DNA of 64,000 nucleotides, from the NCBI RefSeq assembly GCF_003149185.1, contig NZ_QGDO01000001.1, positions 620,001-684,000 on the forward strand, written 5' to 3'. This DNA comes from Sediminitomix flava (GTDB lineage Bacteria; Bacteroidota; Bacteroidia; Cytophagales; Flammeovirgaceae). A program made the position numbers and the translations under genes. The notes under the pieces are model-generated. The model worked only from the letters and a program-made list of their open reading frames with translations, did not search any database and had not been told where the DNA came from. This document shows positions 56,452 to 64,000 of this stretch, in pieces. Position 1 is the stretch's first letter. The number at the start of each line of letters is the position of its first letter.

Positions 56452-57327
56452 ATGACTCCGAATGAAGATATTGTTTTTTTCAAAGGGGAAGATACTGGAA
56501 AAGGTCTTCCCTTTGGTATTGTAAACTCTGATAATTTACTGAGTGGAACAGGTATTTTCACGCCTTCACTCAGAGATTTTCATGTTATTTTTTGGTTTAA
56601 AAAAGGCTCAGGAAAATACTACATCGACTTTAAAGAGTATGAACTAAAACCCAATACACTGATCTTAGTACCCAGAGATCAAGTACACTATTTTGCACCA
56701 CTTAATCAGGAAGAATGTGAAATTGAGTCTATCGTATTTCATCCCGATTACTTGTACAGAAACGATAATGACATTCAGCATCTTTTCTACTTCACTGTTG
56801 CAGATCACATAGAGGGAAAACAAATTCTTACACTTGAAAAGGAAGAATGCGAACACCTCACAATATTAAGCACTCAGATGAAAGATGTGTACTACCATTG
56901 GGATAGAGAAAAAAGCGAACAAGCCTTTTATCATTGGCTATGCTTGTACCTTATTTATGTAGAAAGACTAGCTTCTGCCCAATTTGATACAGAAACCTTA
57001 GACGAGAATGCTAAACTACTTTTATCTTTCAATGAGCTTTTAGAAGCCAACTATAAAACAGAATACAAGGTGGAGTACTACATGGAAAAGCTCCAACTCA
57101 ATGTAAAGTCTTTCGCTAAACTTACTAAAGAACGCTACAAACTTTCCCCTAAAGCAGTCATTGATCAAAGAAGAATATTAGAAATCAAAAGGCTATTGAA
57201 AGGAACAGACACCCCTGTTAAGACAATCGCCTATGAACTTGGTTTTGACGAACCTACAAACATGGTGAAATACTTTAAAAAGCACACAGGCCTTACCCCA
57301 GTCGCATTTAGAACAGATAAAGCTTAA
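56452..57327 (+). CDS. AraC-family transcriptional regulator
   Basis: A 291-residue regulator. Residues 1-150 form a cupin-like sensing domain (FHVIFWFKKGSGKYYIDF, LILVPRDQVHYF). The C-terminal AraC/XylS DNA-binding domain, about 190-288, has two helix-turn-helix units: MEKLQLNVKSFAKLTKERY and IAYELGFDEPTNMVKYFKKHTGLTP. It starts 8 bp after the second pirin gene, so it is co-transcribed with the pirins and may control them. Confidence 0.95.
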   Translation: MTPNEDIVFFKGEDTGKGLPFGIVNSDNLLSGTGIFTPSLRDFHVIFWFKKGSGKYYIDFKEYELKPNTLILVPRDQVHYFAPLNQEECEIESIVFHPDYLYRNDNDIQHLFYFTVADHIEGKQILTLEKEECEHLTILSTQMKDVYYHWDREKSEQAFYHWLCLYLIYVERLASAQFDTETLDENAKLLLSFNELLEANYKTEYKVEYYMEKLQLNVKSFAKLTKERYKLSPKAVIDQRRILEIKRLLKGTDTPVKTIAYELGFDEPTNMVKYFKKHTGLTPVAFRTDKA

Positions 57328-58926: not shown

Positions 58927-58979
58927 TATCTGCTTGTTCATTTAGATATGACATCTCTTTCTACTGATAGAGATATTTG

Positions 58980-59016
58980 GGCGATTCCAATTTTTGGAAT
59001 CGCCTTTTTATTTTTA
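58980..59016 (+). terminator. Terminator of RRM gene
   Basis: Perfect 11-bp stem GGCGATTCCAA / TTGGAATCGCC with loop TTT, followed by TTTTTATTTTT. Confidence 0.95.
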
Positions 59017-59099
59017 ATCGATCAAATAGCCCTTTTATCAACTATCAACGGATTTGAGTTTATCGAAATAGAAATACCATTCGTCGGATTATGAAAGCA

Positions 59100-59189
59100 C
59101 TTAGTAGAAGTAGCCGAACGACTTCTTCTTGGTCAAGGTTCTGTTGGTGTAATTCAAGAAACAACAGTACGACAACCTAAGAACCAAGA
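59100..59189 (+). promoter_or_regulatory. Conserved structured leader of first LruC gene
   Basis: CTTAGTAGAAGT begins exactly 110 bases before the ATG, followed at +16 by GAACG. A nested stem follows: TCTTGGT/ACCAAGA (59127-59133, 59183-59189), AGGTT/AACCT (59136-59140, 59174-59178) and CTGTTG/CAACAG (59141-59146, 59162-59167). Confidence 0.55.
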
Positions 59190-59209
59190 CTAAAACCTAA
59201 CTATATTCG

Positions 59210-60529
59210 ATGAGAAAATTAACTTATCTAGGCTTAATCTGTGCAACAACAACCTCACTCTTTTCTTGTACACAAGAAGAAAACATACCTACGCTTTCCA
59301 ACCAGAATAATGTAACTACAATTACAGAAATGAAAGATGTTCAGGTTCCAGAACAATTTTCATGGTCAGCAAGTCTTCCATTAGATTTGAACATTCAATT
59401 TCAGAATATTGGAGAAACAAACTTCAACTTAGAGAATGAGCTTGTTCTTCTGATGGATATGGATGGAAACCATCTTACTCAAGCTTTCATAAAAGATAAT
59501 ACAGTTTCATTTTCAGGAAAATTACCTCATTCCCTAAATAAACTACAGGTATATTTCCCCAAAACTCAGAATATCCTTGAGGTTTATCCTAATGAAGGTG
59601 ATGTATGGATGGAAGTAGCAGACCTTAGTACAAATGCCGTATTTGAAAATGAGTTTTTGTACATTGACGGTCTTAAGTACTTCGATTACCAAGCAAAAAG
59701 TAATGCTAGAGTACAAACAAGTGGAGACGCTGATAATGATGGCGTAGCAGATGAATTTGATTCATTTCCCAATGACCCCAACAAAGCCTTTAACGAAAGA
59801 TATCCACTATCAGGTTATCACTCAACATTATTTGAAGACCTTTGGCCATACCAAGGAGATTATGATTTCAACGATGTTGTTGTTTCTACGATCATCAATA
59901 CGATTAAAGATCCTCAAAATAATATAATCCAACTATCAGTAAGTATAGACATTGATGCTAACGGCGGAGACTTTAACTCAGATATCATGCTTCGTCTGCT
60001 AAAATCTGACAAGACATCATTCGGACAACAGATTATTTCAAGTGTAGGTGGTGCTGATGGTTTTGAGCCTGGTTTGCAGGAAGTATCAAGTAACCTCATA
60101 AAAGTGATTTCAAACAATCAAAACTTAGGTTACAAAAACAATGGAGATGGAGCGAATGGTGATATTGAAAATAAGAGTTTTTCAATCGTAATTGACCCTG
60201 CTTTAGAAATAAAGAGCATTGACCCTAATATATTTATCTGCCGCACTTTTGATCGTTCACATGAAATTCATGGCAGTGATTATCCAGCAACCGTTAGTTT
60301 CAATTCTGCTATGCTAAATACAGGAAATGACAATGGTAACTTTATGACATCTGATGGGTATCCATGGAGAATTGAAATTTTTTCAAGCACAAAATTCTAC
60401 CACCCAAAAGAAGGGGTAAGTATTGTCAACGCATATCCTGACTTTGCGAATTGGGTACAAAACAATAAACAAAGTTATACGGACTGGATGGAAACACCTC
60501 AAATGAGTAAAGTATTTGTTCAGGAATAG
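59210..60529 (+). CDS. LruC-domain lipoprotein, first copy
   Basis: A 439-residue lipoprotein: lipobox LFSC, followed by TQEEN, which fits surface export. Residues about 40-165 form a beta domain (VPEQFSWSASLPLDL, FPKTQNILEVYP). A calcium-binding thrombospondin-3-like repeat DADNDGVADEFDSFPNDPN precedes the LruC domain, which starts with FEDLWPYQGDYDFNDVVVS and runs to the end. LruC proteins are cell-surface lipoproteins of unknown role. The next gene is a longer tandem copy. Confidence 0.9.
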   Translation: MRKLTYLGLICATTTSLFSCTQEENIPTLSNQNNVTTITEMKDVQVPEQFSWSASLPLDLNIQFQNIGETNFNLENELVLLMDMDGNHLTQAFIKDNTVSFSGKLPHSLNKLQVYFPKTQNILEVYPNEGDVWMEVADLSTNAVFENEFLYIDGLKYFDYQAKSNARVQTSGDADNDGVADEFDSFPNDPNKAFNERYPLSGYHSTLFEDLWPYQGDYDFNDVVVSTIINTIKDPQNNIIQLSVSIDIDANGGDFNSDIMLRLLKSDKTSFGQQIISSVGGADGFEPGLQEVSSNLIKVISNNQNLGYKNNGDGANGDIENKSFSIVIDPALEIKSIDPNIFICRTFDRSHEIHGSDYPATVSFNSAMLNTGNDNGNFMTSDGYPWRIEIFSSTKFYHPKEGVSIVNAYPDFANWVQNNKQSYTDWMETPQMSKVFVQE

Positions 60530-60556
60530 AATCTATTCCATAGCTAATTAAGTCAG

Positions 60557-60591
60557 AAGCCCTTGTAATCGTGATTACAAGGGCTTTTTTT
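60557..60591 (+). terminator. Terminator of first LruC gene
   Basis: AAGCCCTTGTAATC / GATTACAAGGGCTT, 14-bp stem with a very short loop, followed by a T-run. Confidence 0.93.
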
Positions 60592-60685
60592 ATACATCAA
60601 ATTCAATTCTTAAGTCTCAAAAATGGATTTCCTACATGTGTAATTTTATCGAAATATCAGTACTGTTTATCGGGTAAAACTCCTG

Positions 60686-60776
60686 CTTAGTAGAAGTGCA
60701 TGAACGTAGCTTTCAAAGACAGGGTTCTACTGATGAATTAAGAAACAATACGACTTACACAACCTACACTAGAACC
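60686..60776 (+). promoter_or_regulatory. Conserved leader of second LruC gene
   Basis: CTTAGTAGAAGT begins exactly 110 bases before the ATG, with GAACG at +16, as in the first copy. AAGAAACAA lies at a similar place (60740). GGTTCTA (60723-60729) pairs with TAGAACC (60770-60776), ending 20 bases before the start, so a hairpin is kept although the sequence has drifted. Confidence 0.5.
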
Positions 60777-60795
60777 TAATACCAACTAGAAACTA

Positions 60796-62601
60796 ATGAG
60801 AATATTAACTTACCTAAGCTTTTTATGTGCTGCTTTATTTTCTTGTACGCAAGAAGAAAACGTTCCTACTCTTATTACACAACAGACTAATACAGGAACG
60901 ATAAGCACAATGAACGAACTTCAAGTTCCTGATCAATTTTCTTGGTCTGCGAGCCTTCCTCTTGATCTAACCGTAGAATTTCAAAATATTGGTGAGACCA
61001 ATTTCAACCTAGAAAATGAATTGGTACTGCTTTTAGATATGGAAGGAAATCAACTGACGCAAGCACTTATAAAAAACAATAGTGTTTCTTTTACTGGAAA
61101 ACTTCCGCATACTTTAAGCAAGCTTCAAATCTACTTCCCAAAAACTCAAAATGTATTGGAAGTACTTCCTGATGAAGGTGATATTTTTATGGAGGTCGCA
61201 ACTTTTAGTCCTTCAGATATTCTGGAAATAGACAATCAATATCCATTCATTAATGGATTGAAGTACTTGGCACTTGATGTAGAAAAAAACTCGAATAGCA
61301 ATAAGAGAGTCCAATCAACGAACTTACTTCAAGATGGCACTTTAGATGGTAGCCTTACGGTACTACCCAATGATAACTGGTGGCCGCACTTCCTATTAAA
61401 TGAAGGTGGATGGTATACATCATCAAGATCAAACTATCAAGCAATACACGGAACTGAAAGTAATAATCAATTTGCAGAGCCTCTTGAAACACACTTACTA
61501 CTAGGTCAAACTATTGATATTTCGGCAGGTGGTGAATATGAACTTTCAGCTGATATCAAACATATGCATCTGTATTTTCACATCATGTATTATTCAGGCG
61601 CTGAAACTGTAGGAAGCAGTAATGTTATTTCTCAAGATCAAAGAACACATGCTAATGGTTCTCATCATTGGAAAAATAAATCATTTTCATTCACACCTCC
61701 TCAAGGGGCTACTAAAGCTACAATTTATATTTCGGGTTATGACCAAGGAAATGGCTCTGCTAAAATAGATAACATTACATTGACGGGCACAGTTTTAGAC
61801 AGCGATAATGATGGAGTAAATGATGATATCGATATCTATCCGAATGATGCTACAAAAGCTTTCTTTGAGAGATATCCTGCAGAAGGTTATAGATCTGTTC
61901 TTTTTGAAGATTTATGGCCTTACCAAGGAGATTATGATTTTAATGATGTAGTGGTTTCCACAATAGTGAACACCATTAAAAATGCAGATAATAATATTGT
62001 ACACCTATCAATTAGTATGGACATAGATGCAAATGGAGGAGACTTCAATTCAGATGTAATGATCCGACTTTTGAAAGCTGATAAAACTCCATTTGAACAA
62101 CAAATTATAACGAGTGTAGGTGGAGCAAATGGCTATGAACCTGGTACGGAAGAAATTTCAAGTAACCTTATCAAGGTAATATCAAATAATCAGAAATTAG
62201 GTTATAAAAATAATGGAGATGGAGCAAATGGAGATGTTCAGAATAAAAGGTTTTCTATTGTTATTGATCCTGCATTGGAGATAAAAAACATTGATCCAGA
62301 AATCTTTATCTGTCGTACTTTTGATCGATCTCATGAAATTCATGGAGATGGATACCCTGTAACATCAAACTTTAATTCAGCAATGCAAAATACAGGACAT
62401 GACGGTGGAAACTTTATGACTTCAGAAGGCTACCCTTGGAGACTTGAGATATTTTCAAGTACAAAGTTCGACCATCCTAAAGAAGGTGTGAGCATCATCA
62501 ATGCCTATCCACAATTTGCCAATTGGGTACAAAACAACAAACAAAGTTATACGGATTGGATGGAGACTCCTTTAGAAAGTAAAGTCTTTGATATGGACTA
62601 A
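60796..62601 (+). CDS. LruC-domain lipoprotein, second copy with inserted domain
   Basis: A 601-residue paralogue of the preceding gene; the N-terminal part and the LruC domain align closely (DFNDVVVST, NNGDGANGD, FICRTFDRSHEIHG). Lipobox ALFSC then TQEEN. Between the two shared parts, about residues 175-333, sits an extra beta-sandwich with aromatic residues (NDNWWPHF, GGWYTSS) and a KIDNITLTGT end, like a carbohydrate-binding module. The calcium-type repeat DSDNDGVNDDIDIYPND follows it. A domain gain after duplication, or loss from the first copy, would explain this. Confidence 0.9.
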   Translation: MRILTYLSFLCAALFSCTQEENVPTLITQQTNTGTISTMNELQVPDQFSWSASLPLDLTVEFQNIGETNFNLENELVLLLDMEGNQLTQALIKNNSVSFTGKLPHTLSKLQIYFPKTQNVLEVLPDEGDIFMEVATFSPSDILEIDNQYPFINGLKYLALDVEKNSNSNKRVQSTNLLQDGTLDGSLTVLPNDNWWPHFLLNEGGWYTSSRSNYQAIHGTESNNQFAEPLETHLLLGQTIDISAGGEYELSADIKHMHLYFHIMYYSGAETVGSSNVISQDQRTHANGSHHWKNKSFSFTPPQGATKATIYISGYDQGNGSAKIDNITLTGTVLDSDNDGVNDDIDIYPNDATKAFFERYPAEGYRSVLFEDLWPYQGDYDFNDVVVSTIVNTIKNADNNIVHLSISMDIDANGGDFNSDVMIRLLKADKTPFEQQIITSVGGANGYEPGTEEISSNLIKVISNNQKLGYKNNGDGANGDVQNKRFSIVIDPALEIKNIDPEIFICRTFDRSHEIHGDGYPVTSNFNSAMQNTGHDGGNFMTSEGYPWRLEIFSSTKFDHPKEGVSIINAYPQFANWVQNNKQSYTDWMETPLESKVFDMD

Positions 62602-62905: not shown

Positions 62906-64000
62906 CTACCAGTTCGGATTCTGAGTAAGATTAGTAGCCGCCACTAACTCTGATTGAGGGATTGGCCATAAAGCATGTTTAGCCTGATATCCCAAATCAC
63001 CTAACTCTCTTTCTGCTAACCCCCATCTCTTTAAGTCTACATATCTCTGTCCTTCAAAAGCAAGTTCAAGGAAACGCTCTTTTACAATGGCTTCAAACAA
63101 ATCGTTGCCAGTTACTCCCATCAGAGGAGTCAATGAAACTCTTTCTCTTACTTTATTCAATTCAACCAAGGCTTGTGCATCATTCCCAGATTTATGGTAA
63201 GCCTCTGCCGCCATAAGTAATACATCAGAAAAGCGAAGCAATCTCCAGTTTGAACCATAGTTTAATGCCGTTTCTCCATTAGTACTGGTCTCATCTAAAT
63301 AAGTACCAAACTTAGCTCTGAAGAAGCCTTCAAAATCATGGAATTCACTAAAATCAGGTGTTACAAGTTCATCCTCTGCTACTCCTGCATCTCTTTGTGC
63401 TTGCAAGTCTGAATCAATAAATTCTTGAGCGGTAATAATTACAGCAGATCGTCTTACTACATCACCTTCTGCTTCATAAGCATCGTAAAGTTTCGGACTT
63501 GGCAACAAGAATCCCCAGCCATCCAACATATCTAAATCAACAACAGCTCCAGCTCTTGGCCCCATCAATTGTGTATGGATATTAGATTGTGCTCTTTGTC
63601 CCCAAGGGAAATTCCCCCAGTTATACGCTTGAGAATTAGAATATGAACCCTCAAGAATTGACTCTACTCCAAACTCGCCTTCTGTACTAAAAACAGTTGC
63701 ATAATCCATCTCCAACTGATATTCTCCAGAAGAAATTACAGAAGCAAATGTACTTGCTGCCTCGCTATATTTCTCTTGGAAAAGGTAAGCCTTTCCTAGT
63801 AAAGTTTGTGCTGTTCCTTTAGAAATACGGAATTGATCAGCAGAAGAATACTCACTTTTTAGAGGCAAATCCGCAATTGCTTCCGTTAAATCTTTTTCAA
63901 TTTGTTGATAAACTTCAGCCGCGGGTGTTCTTGCTTGGTTATACTCAGAAACGATAAGTTCCTCAAGCACCAAAGGAACATCTCCCCAAAGAGAAACCAA
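62906..64000 (-). CDS. SusD/RagB-family lipoprotein, C-terminal part (cut by window edge)
   Basis: The last 364 or so residues of a SusD protein; the frame is open to the edge, so its start lies outside. Typical parts: PLVLEE, the TPR helices GTAQTLLGKAYLFQEKYSEAASTF, SDVLLMAAEAYHKSGN, ERFLELAFEGQRYVDLKRWG and the end ALWPIPQSELVAATNLTQNPNW. A susC gene should lie further right on the same strand. It belongs to a second nutrient-uptake locus. Confidence 0.93.
   Translation of the reverse strand: MVSLWGDVPLVLEELIVSEYNQARTPAAEVYQQIEKDLTEAIADLPLKSEYSSADQFRISKGTAQTLLGKAYLFQEKYSEAASTFASVISSGEYQLEMDYATVFSTEGEFGVESILEGSYSNSQAYNWGNFPWGQRAQSNIHTQLMGPRAGAVVDLDMLDGWGFLLPSPKLYDAYEAEGDVVRRSAVIITAQEFIDSDLQAQRDAGVAEDELVTPDFSEFHDFEGFFRAKFGTYLDETSTNGETALNYGSNWRLLRFSDVLLMAAEAYHKSGNDAQALVELNKVRERVSLTPLMGVTGNDLFEAIVKERFLELAFEGQRYVDLKRWGLAERELGDLGYQAKHALWPIPQSELVAATNLTQNPNW

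Follow-up and report, generated by a model that had tools for sequence, protein, structure and literature searches.

Direct repeats spaced by about 21 bp have been described for several AraC-type regulators. The operators predicted for AraC-type hybrid two-component systems (HTCSs) in Bacteroides are, according to the account in PMC3878776, direct repeats whose tandem sites are separated by 21 bp on average. AraC-family rhamnose regulators are likewise presented as using direct repeats with 21-bp periodicity (PMC3870299). Here, we analysed a 64,000 nt stretch of the Sediminitomix flava genome (contig NZ_QGDO01000001.1, positions 620,001 to 684,000; hereafter the window) in which a conserved block precedes two tandem genes, A and B, that encode LruC-domain proteins, and we found a third copy of the block, C, on a different contig. 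We lean towards the view that this block is a transcriptional control region made of three tandem 21-bp direct repeats, which a helix-turn-helix regulator, at best guess of the AraC type, would bind and thereby switch the promoter downstream. Sites of LytTR response regulators are paired direct repeats of approximately 21–22 bp spacing with a GTT-type core; the spacing is similar to that of the LruC array, but a GTT-type core was not apparent by eye.

The LruC array resembles the Bacteroides HTCS operators of PMC3878776 in having approximately 21-bp direct repeats ahead of surface-protein genes, and here too an HTCS gene lies in the neighbourhood. It differs from them in having three sites rather than two, and the candidate operator of the neighbouring HTCS is another repeat. 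The targets also differ, being single LruC genes and one gene-less unit here, and susC/susD loci in the systems presented in PMC3878776. With the operators of the AraC-family rhamnose regulators, as presented in PMC3870299, the array has the 21-bp direct-repeat periodicity in common, whilst the targets are unrelated and the comparison is one of spacing.

The 12-base motif CTTAGTAGAAGT starts at positions 59100 and 60686, exactly 110 bases before the ATG codons of A and B (59210 and 60796), and GAACG follows at the same offset in both leaders (59116 and 60702), just as an earlier note on this DNA had claimed. These are the two exact copies of CTTAGTAGAAGT in the window. A second 12-mer, TTTATCGAAATA, is identical in both leaders (12/12) at −151. 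Aligned in register, the leaders are identical at 62 of 105 positions between −154 and −50, compared with 48 of 146 in the upstream flank and 17 of 49 in the downstream flank. When the upstream regions in the window were compared as 780 pairs, the A–B pair ranked first, with an in-register score of 23 and a longest run of 12 (runners-up: score 19, longest run 8); of 200,000 simulated pairs, none reached the A–B score and four reached the A–B run.

On sequence comparison, A and B are tandem paralogues from an old duplication. Four-fold degenerate sites agreed at 40 of 113 positions, at the chance level given by shuffling within codon families (mean 39.5, sd 4.5), so that the synonymous sites keep no trace of shared descent and a recent duplication of A and B is ruled out. 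This result bears on the possibility that the shared block is functionless similarity left over from duplication or from local gene conversion. The tandem arrangement of the paralogues and the lack of a clear copy in 17 related genomes would suit such an origin, but the synonymous sites are fully randomized, the conservation lies in spaced blocks rather than in one converted tract, and the third copy on another contig has the same spacing. We consider leftover similarity improbable; conserved blocks set apart by diverged sequence look like the outcome of selection. The suggestion of the earlier note that a control unit was kept by selection after duplication is supported, as the synonymous sites have reached saturation whereas the leader block has not, and as there is a third copy. 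The case shows how a copied promoter can outlive the likeness of its genes at synonymous sites.

Copy C was found with a sequence model (R1, 105 columns) built from the leaders of A and B alone. All leader models were run across the 18 genomes of the family, including the S. flava genome itself (6.6 Mb, 39 contigs); two further models, R2 and R3, were retrained with C, and these scored the best 150 candidates per genome. R1 aligned to C at G000:C7:72941-73041 over 101 positions without a gap, scoring 24.8 bits (E 1.3e-4). Leaders A and B themselves scored 95.0 and 94.6 bits. After C, the next match in the S. flava genome reached 13.5 bits, and the 17 other genomes gave 19.1 at most; some match at E ≤5 occurred in 16 of the 18 genomes. 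With R2 and R3, A, B and C alone stood above noise, the score of C being high by construction. Copy C lacks the exact 12-mer CTTAGTAGAAGT but retains TTA.CGAAA, AC..TT..TCG, TT..TAGAA and GAACG-N16-GGTTCT at identical spacing.

The repeat structure emerged from an autocorrelation of the three aligned leaders. Over lags of 8 to 45, the values were highest at 42 (0.49) and 21 (0.46), with the rest between 0.20 and 0.39. With four choices of columns, a statistic combining a lag with its double, picked after the lag table had been seen, was matched by 1, 0, 0 and 1 of 2000 shuffles of the columns, and the single-lag statistic by 3, 7, 17 and 42 of 2000. Lag analysis and column shuffles place the units, all on the forward strand, at 59059..59079, 59080..59100 and 59101..59121 in leader A, and at 60645..60665, 60666..60686 and 60687..60707 in leader B. 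By this phasing, CTTAGTAGAAGT is the opening of unit 3 plus the one base that precedes it, and GAACG (59116-59120 in A) lies near the end of unit 3. Across the nine units of A, B and C, T2 and G7 are invariant, T1, T5 and C19 occur in eight of nine, and the consensus is approximately TTtATcGAA...A.AC. The phasing is strong in A and C taken singly, each of which falls in the top 0.09% of 18,268 63-mers of the window at lags 21 and 42, and in the top 0.28% when the lag is left free.

Each array thus holds at least two repeats approximately 21 bp apart and lies between an upstream terminator-like hairpin and its gene or unit. The intrinsic terminator of an RRM gene lies upstream of A (58979..59005, forward strand). 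Between A and B there is a terminator-like hairpin followed by a T run (60555..60588, forward strand; z −6.33), which the terminator scan did not list. Given these hairpins, each gene probably needs its own promoter within the approximately 200 bases that hold the block. The shared control array is real, selected and of a known kind, the direct-repeat region of two old paralogues and one orphan copy. In the mechanism we propose, the subunits of a helix-turn-helix regulator would sit on the repeats along one face of the DNA. The regulator would be of the AraC type, either an HTCS or a stand-alone AraC protein, and once bound would switch, presumably by activation, a promoter just downstream of the repeats, where transcription would start. 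Both surface lipoproteins would then be expressed jointly. A phased operator common to two old paralogues and an orphan unit offers a testable link between LruC surface proteins and an AraC-type sensing system.

Several observations weigh against this proposal. An earlier, more local repeat statistic was not significant (58/400). The phasing of B alone is weak: B reaches just the top 10% of the 63-mers of the window at lags 21 and 42, and the top 38% with the lag free; over wider ranges of columns, the lag that suits it best is 23 or 13. Because the three leaders are homologues, the shared repeats could in part be inherited rather than separately maintained. No wider regulon emerged, as the matches of R3 above noise in the S. 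flava genome were A, B and C alone, with no clear copy in the 17 relatives. A direct repeat of 22-bp spacing (10/12 identical, GGAACAT core) precedes the susC-like gene beside the neighbouring HTCS (L259:4580-4696, minus strand); it is a candidate operator of that HTCS, whose operator is then probably another than the LruC array. Of three susC-like genes examined, the two in the window lacked a 21–22-bp repeat among their best; with one in three carrying such a repeat, this spacing is no general mark here. Finally, the Bacteroidota primary promoter box TAnnTTTG has no exact match in leaders A, B or C, with two near matches in B and one in C. Upstream of the genes of the window, this −7 box is enriched, with a count of 12 where 5.6 would be expected, a level reached in 4 of 200 simulations. 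Its absence as an exact match from the three leaders fits an activated promoter or one read by an alternative sigma factor.

The second of these options would make the block an extracytoplasmic function (ECF)-type promoter, with GAACG as the −35 element and GGTTCT as the −10 element; the repeats further upstream would then be sites for an activator, or spacer. GGTTCT lies at −73 in both leaders on the forward strand (59137..59142 in A, where it may be an element of the promoter or belong to the 3′ arm of a stem discussed below, and 60723..60728 in B). It follows GAACG after 16 bases in A, B and C, and these three places are the sole exact matches of GAACG-N16-GGTTCT in the genome, although we estimate that one or two would be expected from base composition. 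We take GAAC-N18-GTT to resemble ECF promoter geometry. Allowing up to one mismatch gave 53 matches to the pattern, fewer than the 105 of its reversed control, and GAACG also fits as the end of repeat unit 3. ECF-type promoters are present in a flavobacterium (PMC9723704), but the −10 region of the motif given there contains a CGT box, which is absent here. We regard an ECF-type promoter as unlikely, and prefer the direct-repeat operator.

The earlier note had proposed a conserved leader RNA or a promoter-plus-leader unit, and between these the evidence favours a DNA operator of three 21-bp repeats over a leader RNA. In its most specific form, the RNA reading holds that TTAGTAGAA pairs with TTCTRYTGR approximately 30 bases downstream in a stem of 8–9 pairs that controls translation or early termination. 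Eight consecutive column pairs are standard in A, B and C, four of them vary, and shuffles reached this length in 5 of 1000 cases, and the length together with the variation in 3 of 1000. In the alignment, 96.3% of cells are paired, compared with 33–74% for slid versions, and there is one double change. The isolated segments of B and C fold mostly into the TTAGTAGAA × TTCTRYTGR stem, but the fold of A lacks it, and A constrained to form it reaches −1.0 kcal/mol. Partner shuffles are uninformative with three sequences (337 of 500 reached the observed value), and the RNAalifold energy hinges on the columns chosen, with 7, 23, 25, 82 and 106 of 1000 shuffles as low. Folds of the whole leaders are of ordinary stability (z −1.42 for A, +0.56 for B and −0.07 for C), and the stem leaves the conserved blocks at −151 and −130 unexplained. 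A search of Rfam 15 over 58930-60900 gave 15 matches at E ≤5, all below the gathering scores of their families. Taken together, a leader RNA seems to us quite unlikely, and the repeats remain our preferred account of the block.

A related claim of the earlier note was that each leader has an inverted repeat ending approximately 20 bases before the start, with differing paired sequences. The repeats exist, as TCTTGGT/ACCAAGA in leader A, ending approximately 20 bases before the start, and as GGTTCTA/TAGAACC in leader B, seen by eye and in the leader fold. Perfect 7-bp arms are, however, ordinary, occurring in 169 of 500 simulated leaders for A and 114 of 500 for B; as the folds are ordinary too and AGAACC is absent from copy C, we rejected the hairpin near −20 as a conserved feature. 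Nor do the paired sequences differ fully: GGTTCT and AGAACC occur in leaders A and B alike, with AGAACC at unequal distances from the two ATG codons. A small leader peptide was also rejected, as A, B and C have no shared start codon and no consistent excess of third-position mismatches. The leader frame runs open to its stop over 30 codons in A and in B and over 23 in C (59101-59193, 60687-60779 and L181:1984-2055), with a stop three or four codons upstream in each and TTA as the first codon in A and B; mismatches at the three codon positions number 15/14/16 for A–B, 11/12/7 for A–C and 11/11/15 for B–C.

The earlier note had also proposed a genome search for the 12-base motif, and had held that its absence from orthologous loci and from the rest of the genome would leave simple recent duplication as the explanation. 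The exact combination CTTAGTAGAAGT-N4-GAACG occurs only in leaders A and B, and with up to three mismatches there are 26 matches in the S. flava genome against 58 for the reversed control. We thus rejected a regulon of CTTAGTAGAAGT, for which the matches listed outside the S. flava genome in the family search include no exact copy. There is indeed no clear copy of the block in the 17 other family genomes, but a third genomic copy exists, without the exact 12-mer, and the duplication is old. A regulon of TTTATCGAAATA alone was rejected as well: the motif has eight exact copies, and matches with at most one mismatch number 104+89 against 94+104 for the control.

Some of the weaker model matches were inspected individually. 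Seven of the better hits in other family genomes all lie in stop-free frames of at least 100 codons, as chance hits would. Of ten weak hits in the S. flava genome, eight fall within frames of 80 aa or longer, and the other two (L239 and L240) sit at a terminator-like hairpin and a gene boundary. R3 gave a further two weak hits in this genome, of 13.1 and 12.8 bits. R2 found nothing at E ≤10 in 31 LruC loci, many of which include little sequence ahead of the start. The genus is represented by one genome in the collection, and the comparison therefore reached other genera of the family rather than orthologous leaders proper.

Gene A (59210..60529, forward strand) encodes a protein of 439 aa and gene B (60796..62601, forward strand) one of 601 aa. 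Both score above the curated cut-off of 36 bits for TIGR04456 (137.6 and 141.2 bits, respectively) and have, by eye, lipoprotein-like starts. Alignment of the two shows that approximately 160 residues unique to B sit between the N-terminal part and the LruC domain. In protein B, the carbohydrate-binding domain PF02018 also matches below threshold, at 20.3 bits where 25.9 are required. A first scan of genome contigs found no relative, and a second returned 15, of 25–33% identity and mostly across the LruC domain. An order-level search, in which at most three candidates per genome were scored, gave a protein match in 42 of 390 genomes; among the matches listed outside the S. flava genome, all start past model position 270, leaving the N-terminal part uncovered. 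A literature search gave no report on the regulation of LruC-domain proteins in Bacteroidota; the papers it listed on the LruC domain were all, by title, on Leptospira or leptospirosis.

The orphan copy C is the most interesting loose end of this analysis. It heads a unit (L181:1942-2368, equivalent to G000:C7:72941-73367) that consists of the control-region copy and a terminator-bounded stretch without a recognizable protein gene. A terminator-like hairpin lies behind the gene that precedes C (L181:1850-1878), a terminator closes the unit (L181:2336-2368), and the longest forward frame between the two is 43 aa. A third LruC gene behind C was considered and rejected, as no remnant of one was found there (best tblastn E 5.8). 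The body of the unit has no second copy in the 18 genomes, in which its other matches are short (best 28 bases, E 0.006). It is conceivable, if improbable, that C is a terminator-bounded non-coding RNA unit rather than a dead remnant, co-induced with the LruC genes, or that its RNA or operator competes for the regulator, which would give a circuit of three members that includes a built-in decoy or small RNA. Around C, the open reading frames of C7:58000-71500 and 76500-92000 were listed, and the Pfam scan covered one of these (a sigma-54 activator) and five open reading frames of L181. The unit lies between a group of genes, among them those for a lycopene cyclase and a hydroxylase-family protein, and a gene for an outer-membrane receptor-like protein.

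The geometry of the array makes an AraC-type protein our best guess for its reader. Within the window, an AraC-family gene at 56452..57327 (forward strand; HTH_18, E 4.4e-19) is a candidate by vicinity and family only. Past the window, approximately 5 kb beyond gene B, lies a complete HTCS with propeller, kinase, receiver and HTH_18 domains (L259:4696-8868), and a further AraC gene follows at L259:11744-12709. None of these AraC-type genes has been tied to the repeats, and an R3 search of L259-L261 returned nothing. Gene B is adjoined by a probable polysaccharide-utilization locus on the minus strand, spanning 62906-64000 of the window and L259:1481-11525. The locus comprises a susD-like gene (assigned by eye), a susC-like gene, the HTCS regulator and a sulfatase gene; the AraC gene and a GH3 gene then follow on the other strand.

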